Positions 37,965-39,676 of a stretch of DNA of 64,000 bases are shown here, one piece after another. A model generated the notes under the pieces. It had not been told where the DNA came from. It saw nothing but the letters and a program-made list of their open reading frames with translations, and did not search any database. Both the position numbers and the translations under genes were made by a program. Within the stretch, counting starts at the first letter, position 1, and each line of letters begins with the position of its first letter. This DNA comes from Nitrospirota bacterium (GTDB lineage Bacteria > Nitrospirota > Thermodesulfovibrionia > Thermodesulfovibrionales > UBA9159), in NCBI GenBank assembly GCA_023475105.1, contig JAMCWJ010000010.1, positions 1-64,000 on the forward strand, in the 5' to 3' direction.

Positions 37965-38510
37965 ATAGTTAATCGAAGACGAGCATTGCCAGGGCGGGTC
38001 GTCGACAAGACCCGCGTAAACAACCAGATACGCCTGCTTAACGGGAAAGAGATACGAGTTGTCGACGATGAAGGGCAAATCGGCATAATGGATCTTGCTT
38101 CGGCTTTGAAACTCGCCGGAGAACGGGAGTTGGACCTTGTGGAAATCAGCCCCGAGGCTGAGCCGCCGGTATGCAAGATCATGGACTACCGGAAATTCAA
38201 GTTCGAACAGGGCAAAAAACTTCGGAAAGCCAAGAAACAGCAAACGACTCTCGCACTCAAAGAAATCAGGATGCGCCCCATGATCGATACTCACGATTAT
38301 GAGTTCAAGAAGCGTAATGCGCGGAAGTTCCTCGATCACGGGGACAAGGTTAAAGTGACCATTCGGTTCAGAGGACGAGAATTTAGCCGCCAGGATCTGG
38401 GTGCGAGCGTTCTGAACAGGTTCGCGATGGAACTGGAGGATGTCGCAAAAGTGGAATCCCAGCCGAAGATGGACGGCAGGCAGATGGTAATGATTCTCAG
38501 GGCTTCGTAA
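37965..38510 (+). CDS. infC: Translation initiation factor IF-3, AUA start codon
   Basis: Binds the 30S subunit and checks start codons. N-domain with VNNQIRLLNGKEIRVVDDEGQIGIM, linker helix KKLRKAKKQQT, C-domain KEIRMRPMIDTHDYEFKKRNARKFL and VTIRFRGREFSRQDLG. The only codon at proper distance (eight nt) from the strong AGGAGG (37951-37956) and at the conserved N-terminus is ATA 37965, giving 181 aa. Rare start codons in infC are known to let IF-3 repress its own synthesis (AUU in E. coli). Unusually, rpmI and rplT do not follow. Confidence 0.92.
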   Translation: MVNRRRALPGRVVDKTRVNNQIRLLNGKEIRVVDDEGQIGIMDLASALKLAGERELDLVEISPEAEPPVCKIMDYRKFKFEQGKKLRKAKKQQTTLALKEIRMRPMIDTHDYEFKKRNARKFLDHGDKVKVTIRFRGREFSRQDLGASVLNRFAMELEDVAKVESQPKMDGRQMVMILRAS

Positions 38511-38571: not shown

Positions 38572-38601
38572 TTGCATAATTAGGCTGAGGCGTGCTATTC
38601 T
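38572..38601 (+). promoter_or_regulatory. Probable promoter of the first cold-shock gene
   Basis: TTGCAT (38572-38577), 18-nt spacer, TATTCT (38596-38601). Transcription would start near 38608, upstream of the hairpin at 38636, giving a leader of about 109 nt, the length class of cold-shock mRNA leaders. Confidence 0.5.
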
Positions 38602-38635
38602 AACTAAGAATTTTAGAAGTTTTTGCCGTTTATGA

Positions 38636-38669
38636 GGCCACAAAGACTTTTGACTTTGTGGCCTTTTTT
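38636..38669 (+). terminator. Strong intrinsic terminator between infC and csp1
   Basis: GGCCACAAAG, 8-nt loop, CTTTGTGGCC: a perfect 10-bp stem directly followed by six T. It ends infC transcription, but also lies 28 nt downstream of the predicted csp1 start, so it may act as an attenuator there. Confidence 0.85.
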
Positions 38670-38716
38670 GTTGGGACCTTCTGAGATTTGAGTCTATAGA
38701 TAAGGAGGTAAAAGAA

Positions 38717-38917
38717 ATGGAACAAGGAACTGTGAAGTGGTTTAGCGACAGCAAAGGTTTTGGATTCATTACAAATGAAGACGGAAGCGAAGCTTTTGTC
38801 CACCATACGTCCATCCTGGGCAACGGCTTTAAGAGTCTTGCCGAGGGTGACAAGGTCAGCTTCGATACCGAAAAAGGCCCGAAAGGTCCCAAGGCGATCA
38901 ATGTCGTCAGACTGTAA
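38717..38917 (+). CDS. Cold-shock protein, CspA family (copy 1)
   Basis: 66-aa OB-fold RNA chaperone. RNP1 KGFGFI and RNP2 FVHH are intact; [20 protein letters not shown] is typical. AAGGAGG eight nt upstream. Tandem with copy 2 (about 70% alike by eye); each gene is followed by its own hairpin. Confidence 0.95.
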
Positions 38918-38924
38918 TTAGAGT

Positions 38925-38956
38925 GAGAAGACCCCTCCGCTGGAAGGGGTCTTCTC
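38925..38956 (+). terminator. Hairpin after csp1
   Basis: A perfect 12-bp stem GAGAAGACCCCT / AGGGGTCTTCTC with an 8-nt loop, starting eight nt after the stop; no T-tract. May protect the 3' end or attenuate read-through into csp2. Confidence 0.6.
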
Positions 38957-39043
38957 ATGAGAGGGAAGATGAACAACAGTGCCCCGATGGCTGAAATCTG
39001 AGTGCGCGCCGGGATTTCACTTAACAGGAAAGGAGTTACCGCA

Positions 39044-39298: not shown

Positions 39299-39676
39299 AT
39301 GACATACCGTGAAAAGTGCGATGCAAGAATCGAAAGAATGCAGAAAAAGCATGACGCAGGTCTTATCTCCAAGCGTTTTCCTGAAGTCTCGAGTATAGTT
39401 GTCGATATGGAACACCACAGGAAGGGAATAAGCCCGATTCTTCTGTTGCGGACTCTCATTTTCTCGTCCGGCAGTCACGCGTATTTTCACGTTGAATGTC
39501 TGAACAGCGATTGCAAAGATTGTACTGAGGGGTTTGATTTGGATCAAGTCGTTGCTGCGATGATCAGAGGTCATGCATCATCGAGGGAGGGGCAGTTGGA
39601 TTGCGAGGGGAATGGTCTCACTTCCAGCTATGTGAACATCAGCTATAAAGTTACGATACAGTACACCGAAAATTAA
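39299..39676 (+). CDS. Conserved-looking hypothetical protein downstream of cold-shock genes
   Basis: 125 aa, no signal peptide or TM segment. N-terminal basic coiled helix (REKCDARIERMQKKHDAGL), then alternating strands and a Cys cluster ECLNSDCKDC that could bind a metal. AAGGTG lies near the ATG. Directly downstream of two csp genes on the same strand, it may be co-expressed with them. I do not recognise a family. Confidence 0.7.
   Translation: MTYREKCDARIERMQKKHDAGLISKRFPEVSSIVVDMEHHRKGISPILLLRTLIFSSGSHAYFHVECLNSDCKDCTEGFDLDQVVAAMIRGHASSREGQLDCEGNGLTSSYVNISYKVTIQYTEN

Follow-up and report, generated by a model that had tools for sequence, protein, structure and literature searches.

A conserved, terminator-bearing RNA leader probably lets Nitrospirota decide during transcription whether to finish cold-shock messages

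The intrinsic-terminator hairpin upstream of csp1 is part of a conserved RNA leader that probably lets the cell decide, during transcription, whether to finish the message. We analyzed a window of 64,000 nt (the whole stretch of Nitrospirota DNA under study) and, with a probability of about 0.6, we read positions 38608-38716 as a cis-acting leader RNA from a Nitrospirota family that controls cold-shock genes by premature termination. Comparison between loci supports this reading through the leader's own promoter, a hairpin with its U-tract, a long-range helix (P1), and the company that the leader keeps with csp and RNA-remodelling genes. The elements follow one another in a shared order: an extended -10 promoter, a U-rich segment (S1), the terminator, a post-terminator segment (S4), and a Shine-Dalgarno sequence (Table 1).

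Table 1. Positions of the leader elements and neighbouring genes in the window
Feature	Position	Strand	Basis
infC paralogue (IF3), upstream of the leader, start assumed	37965-38510	+	homology
-35-like hexamer TTGCAT	38572-38577	+	sequence; commonest family version is TTGACT
Extended -10, TGC TATTCT	38593-38601	+	sequence, family comparison
P1 5' strand GAATTTTAGAAG, first part of S1	38608-38619	+	fold, pair counts
Predicted antiterminator 5' strand (in S1)	38615-38625	+	core is the heptamer GTTTTTG
S1 heptamer GTTTTTG, proposed Csp site and core of the predicted antiterminator 5' strand	38619-38625	+	resemblance to Csp consensus GTCTTTG/C, alignment
Terminator 5' arm GGCCACAAAG	38636-38645	+	perfect stem with CTTTGTGGCC
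S2, predicted antiterminator 3' strand CAAAGACTTTT, upper terminator arm and loop	38641-38651	+	fold, alignment
S3, terminator 3' arm CTTTGTGGCC	38654-38663	+	8-nt loop between the arms
Terminator U-tract, six T	38664-38669	+	sequence; T-run kept in family copies
ACCTTC, possible alternative partner of the Shine-Dalgarno sequence	38676-38681	+	pairing
S4 CTTCTGAGATTT, 3' strand of P1	38678-38689	+	fold, pair counts
csp1 Shine-Dalgarno sequence AAGGAGG	38702-38708	+	sequence, alignment
csp1, 66-aa cold-shock domain protein, ATG at 38717	38717-38917	+	domain search

A sequence-only reading of this DNA had proposed a perfect 10-bp stem followed by six T in front of csp1, and we confirmed the hairpin and its coordinates. 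When both strands of the window were scanned, it was the sole perfect stem of 10 Watson-Crick pairs with a loop of 3-9 nt that ended in TTTTT, and the same definition returned none in 40 dinucleotide shuffles of the window (one strand scanned). Folded by itself, the hairpin reaches -18.9 kcal/mol (z -7.5); the scanner lists it with 12 pairs, counting the outer A-T and G-T pairs. Under a looser terminator definition, the scanner returned 3 candidates in the 4-kb region against 4.1 expected, with no enrichment of terminators there.

Upstream of the hairpin, TTGCAT, an 18-nt spacer, and TATTCT (38596-38601) were present where the same reading had put them, and we also observed an extended -10, TGCTATTCT, that it had overlooked. 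Taken alone, the window promoter is weak: it matches the consensus at 3/6 and 4/6 positions (7/12 in total), is not among the scanner's 7 promoter sites, and stands out from shuffles only by its TGn and its position. Leader copies elsewhere, 100 of 101 of which could be scored, averaged 8.65 of 12 promoter matches, compared with 7.15 in shuffled upstream sequences. A TGn was found in 82 of these 100 copies (about 7 in shuffles), and the -10 began exactly 9 nt upstream of the leader motif in 58 of them. From the sequence, transcription of csp1 is expected to start near 38608.

The hairpin lies about 125 nt past the infC stop codon and would also end infC transcripts, as it should if it were merely the infC terminator and csp1 transcription started downstream of it. 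We regard this reading as barely tenable because csp genes away from infC carry the same leader, in the source genome as well as in relatives. In the source genome (3.28 Mb in 114 contigs, with csp1 on contig C109), the leader was found at five of the seven csp genes over the Pfam cut-off, on five contigs (csp1 itself and copies on C6, C26, C29, and C87); it was absent before csp2 (39044) and before the csp gene on C66. Among 26 Nitrospirota infC loci (L009-L034), csp lies directly downstream of infC in L017, L018, and L022, the last of which is interrupted by N, with only the csp end present. In these three loci the sequence from S1 into the hairpin is near-identical to the window, and in L017 and L018 the near-identity extends through S4 to the Shine-Dalgarno sequence; the spacer after infC is, by eye, not near-identical in any of them. 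The same block precedes csp genes that do not directly follow infC in L011, L012, L013, and L027. A terminator was flagged in only 1 of the 23 infC homologues with no csp behind them (L030), a weak count in that the script missed L017. Occurring as it does at csp genes away from infC, the leader goes with csp, and the comparison with other csp loci led us to reject the hairpin as an infC terminator only. Placement of the terminator within the csp1 leader is thus well supported, and comparing leaders in relatives, as the sequence-only reading had suggested, showed that the block recurs before their csp genes.

Nitrospirota records contain homologues of the infC paralogue at 71-88% identity, and the source genome holds a second, partial infC match at a contig end (G000:C106:3-275). 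We took the infC start to be ATA at 37965, behind AAAGGAGG; the mechanical ORF begins at an upstream TTG. On the other side of csp1, the csp1-csp2 gap (38918-39043) contains, by eye, a strong hairpin without a T-run at about 38925-38956 and a possible hairpin, TGAAATC...GATTTCA, just before csp2.

We followed the leader across the phylum with a covariance model (R1) built from 13 leader copies, which matched 119 of 295 Nitrospirota genomes at an E value of 1e-3 or better, with at most seven matches per genome. A close look at the strongest matches (90 loci and others) yielded 104 sense matches of 57 bits or more; with weaker and antisense matches set aside, along with the window and L007 as duplicates of L121, we retained 101 distinct strong copies. 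A csp start lies 39-75 nt downstream in 96 of the 101, among them one csp with an internal deletion (L182). By reading of the frames, the other five precede members of the family of the ORF at 39299-39676 (L126, L180, and L017), rpsU (L199), and a DUF47-like gene (L188). This placement bears on the idea that the terminated RNA of ~60 nt is the functional product, a small and abundant RNA that would sponge Csp through S1 and the hairpin loop and so feed back on csp genes in trans. A promoter, a terminator, and a U-rich S1 in several copies per genome would suit such an RNA; however, the position of 96 of the 101 copies just ahead of a csp start, together with the fact that conservation continues past the terminator into S4 and P1, argues for action in cis, and we consider the sponge very improbable.

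Fourteen genomes were searched singly, with up to 150 candidates scored in each, and gave 57 matches at an E value of 1e-3 or better, one of them antisense. By comparison of coordinates, 46 of the 56 sense matches precede a CSD match over 80 bits, and 46 of the 62 such CSD matches in these genomes carry the leader. The remaining sense matches precede two broken csp genes, three members of the ORF 39299 family, two RRM genes (an S21-like frame comes after one of them), an rpsU with a DEAD-box helicase gene behind it, a short ORF ahead of a SWIB-domain gene, and, in one case, nothing recognisable; the RRM, S21, DEAD, and SWIB examples were assigned by Pfam. In distant genomes, csp stood at the match in 21 of the 28 loci read (30.6-60.2 bits), and the seven loci without csp include two before RRM genes (L244 and L247) and one before a csp without a start (L259). 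Four leaders without an intact csp were noted overall, L272 (G018:C4:25256-25327), L273 (G018:C8), G223:C109, and L259; one of the four has nothing recognisable behind it, and the others have an internally deleted, a stop-broken, and a start-less csp.

As a control we searched 200 genomes from Pseudomonadota, which we take to be the phylum of this set (that of a Pleionea genome). Eight matched, all weakly (at most 35.6 bits), and no csp was found near the matches in these eight loci. Among same-order Nitrospirota genomes listed without a match, csp was still present in 19 of 20. The genus g15 carries a shorter, different csp leader in 7 of 7 genomes (L209-L215), and one of these genomes, G035, gave a weak model match somewhere in its sequence. 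A search of viral contigs with one exact pattern did not return the leader, and neither did a blastn search of plasmids. Judged by these matches, the leader is common, not universal, in Nitrospirota.

To compare the helices, we aligned 95 of the 96 csp leaders, leaving out L001 for its long insertion. The terminator was paired in 98.8% of the alignment cells, with 6 of its 10 pairs changed on both sides, and at least five T were present in the next 8 nt after the hairpin in 96 of 100 scored copies. P1, formed by the first 12 leader bases with S4, was paired in 92.9% of cells. Its covariation score was 0.287, compared with 0.256 ± 0.007 in shuffles, and none of 500 shuffles scored as high; its doubly changed cells also exceeded all 500 shuffles, and its doubly changed pairs (three) showed no excess over them. 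Sliding P1 by +1 gave more doubly changed pairs (6 vs 3) and cells (47 vs 24), with only 67.9% of cells paired. RNAalifold predicted the terminator only, and not P1, on the 95-leader alignment. On distant leaders it predicted, unprompted, the terminator, a 7-pair core of P1, and a helix that joins S4 to the Shine-Dalgarno sequence; this set comprised 18 of 21 leaders, three having been dropped when the script found no terminator, and three were trimmed by hand. By these comparisons the terminator covaries, and the P1 helix is supported with the caveats given.

P1 is able to form only after read-through past the terminator. Its need for RNA beyond the terminator and its partial covariation support would also suit control of translation or stability only, in which the hairpin and P1 would give the csp mRNA a structured 5' end, in the manner of the E. 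coli cspA thermosensor, and the U-tract would be a Csp site, not a working terminator. Pairing between S4 and the Shine-Dalgarno sequence, possible in 85.4% of cells and predicted in the distant set, points the same way; however, this pairing showed no excess over shuffles, the Shine-Dalgarno sequence was not opened in folds at 10 °C (see below), and the hairpin has been kept together with its U-tract. We therefore consider control of translation or stability only unlikely, and return to premature termination.

We then folded the 96 leaders in transcription order. RNA up to S2 formed a predicted antiterminator between S1 and S2 in 94 of the 96, RNA with S3 added formed the terminator in 92, and the full leader formed P1 in 76; for the window, the successive folds were the antiterminator at -11.3, the terminator at -20.3, and P1 at -32.6 kcal/mol. 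S1:S2 was 97.7% paired and nearly invariant, and it showed no covariation (score 0.059, compared with 0.062 in shuffles). Each S1 paired with its own S2 not significantly better than with swapped ones (p 0.09, 19 typed variants), and many shuffles folded as well as the prefixes of three divergent copies (z -1.2, -0.3, and -1.4). The pairing was weak, at about -5 kcal/mol, in L255, L264, L265, and L267. In favour of S1:S2, most of S2 falls outside the terminator stem in L266 and L268 by reading, and S2 there nonetheless pairs with S1 at -12.1 kcal/mol. The competing antiterminator that the sequence-only reading had suggested seeking in the leader fold is thus structurally possible and widespread, but covariation gave it no support, and we treat S1:S2 as a predicted antiterminator.

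The heptamer in S1 was GTTTTTG in 86 of the 101 copies by script (89 counting three with a second G in front), and the others were GTTTTTA (6), GTTTTTT (4), GTCTTTT (1), and GTCTTTC (1). Among the 21 distant csp leaders, either GTTTTTG or GTCTTTG is retained in only 7 by reading (L239, L241, L242, L248, L256, L257, and L261). The preferred site of BsCspB is d(GTCTTTG/C), and crystals of the protein were obtained with GUCUUUA RNA (PMC7825780, in excerpt). This resemblance, together with published effects of Csp proteins on termination, makes Csp feedback on the leader possible. The B. subtilis proteins CspB and CspD favour termination at two of the intergenic regions examined, and their effect is reversed in the pyr operon (PMC8307031, in excerpt). 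The E. coli proteins CspA, CspC, CspE, and CspD reduce intrinsic termination (PMC9765468, in excerpt), and a second source reports that CspE prevents it (PMC7858274, in excerpt); on that precedent, Csp might melt the terminator or bind its loop and raise read-through in a positive feedback. We judge such antitermination quite unlikely here, given that Csp on the best Csp-like site, S1, would deprive the antiterminator, and not the terminator, of a strand. The sequence-only reading had taken Csp proteins for antiterminators, their role in E. coli. The position of the Csp-like site on S1 fits better with the opposite sign, as for B. subtilis CspB and CspD, and the leader may bear on these contrasting reports of Csp preventing or promoting termination.

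We favour autogenous attenuation in which Csp on S1 would promote termination. During transcription of the leader, S1 would pair with S2 as an antiterminator; as S3 emerges, the more stable terminator would displace it, and many transcripts would end near 38669. Csp bound to the U-rich S1 would remove the antiterminator, which could then not form, and the resulting increase in enforced termination would constitute negative feedback. On cooling, Csp would be drawn off to newly structured RNAs (Csp titration), and slow strand exchange in the cold may keep the antiterminator in place and allow read-through. Once read-through has occurred, P1 would form between S4 and S1 and give the 5' end of the RNA a shape that would matter for translation or stability.

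Equilibrium folds of the 96 leaders bear on the role of temperature. Three or more Shine-Dalgarno bases were paired in 38 leaders at 10 °C, compared with 24 at 37 °C, and P1 was less frequent at 10 °C than at 37 °C (69 vs 76 leaders). These folds lend no support to a simple cold-opening thermosensor, as the Shine-Dalgarno sequence is paired more, not less, at 10 °C, and we therefore claim no thermometer.

Genes other than csp were also observed behind the leader. The window ORF at 39299-39676 encodes a 125-aa protein with no Pfam or NCBIfam match; a homologue in L270 (38% identity) sits behind the same leader, and frames that resemble it by eye occur in L126, L180, L017, and L271. We regard this family as a candidate cold-shock gene family. 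RRM genes follow the leader in L266 (G000:C5:9731-9801) and L267, as confirmed by Pfam, and in two further loci as judged by eye, L244 and L247. Synechocystis has a similar RRM protein, Rbp1, that is needed for cold adaptability (PMC9333190, in excerpt). In L268 (G006:C8) it precedes rpsU and then a DEAD-box helicase gene, as assigned by Pfam, and this leader has a short terminator stem and long S1:S2 complementarity. One might extend the proposal to a phylum-wide cold-shock riboregulon, in which one attenuator family read by Csp would set termination in the leaders of csp, RRM, rpsU/DEAD-helicase, and the uncharacterised family, with cold sensed as a loss of free Csp and not as RNA melting. 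We offer this idea tentatively and with some doubt; its odds are lowered because distant leaders often lack the heptamer.

We also compared the leader with known RNA families. At gathering thresholds, Rfam identified only four tRNAs over the whole window, and searches with the leader only, from the window and from L001, brought no family near threshold. For RF01766 (cspA thermoregulator), csp1 with its leader scored 46.2 bits against a gathering score of 78, and csp2, without a leader, scored 47.9. The threshold was passed in 2 of 12 whole loci, L001 and L241; the L001 score came from the coding region, csp with 3 nt of leader reaching 99.2 bits and the whole locus 88.4. Membership of the leader in RF01766 was rejected on the score below gathering and on the leaders alone (window and L001), which were unmatched.

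Our literature search, with most subscription papers and all bioRxiv preprints outside its scope, returned no report of the Nitrospirota leader. To our knowledge, cold sensing in bacteria outside the usual models has been little studied. A leader that occurs up to seven times per genome would offer a testable mechanism in which Csp titration is read as transcription termination, and it could be used to mark the cold-shock regulon in a phylum represented among the records here mostly by metagenome assemblies.

Like the E. coli cspA 5'-UTR thermosensor (RF01766), the Nitrospirota leader is a structured 5' leader of a cold-shock gene; unlike it, the leader is shorter and carries an intrinsic terminator. 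The cold-shock boxes of Bacillus subtilis cspB and cspC are likewise conserved regions of csp 5'-UTRs, and a csp 5'-UTR mutation raised expression in a lacZ fusion; the excerpted text describes no terminator in these leaders, a description that sets them apart (PMC8307031). The rimP, rpsL, and greA/rnk leaders are similar in having a conserved 5'-leader terminator, several with antiterminators (PMC2965389, in excerpt), and a term search of the main text of that paper found no csp, cold shock, or infC. By sequence and comparison, the terminator described here sits between the promoter and the csp start codon, the arrangement of an attenuator leader. Attenuation generally works through an antiterminator that competes with a terminator, and TRAP is an example of a protein-dependent attenuator. 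In PyrR-type attenuators, similarly, an RNA-binding protein sets termination in or between transcribed regions (PMC8307031, in excerpt). What would set the Nitrospirota leader apart from PyrR and TRAP is its proposed ligand, a cold-shock protein, and its proposed signal, temperature.
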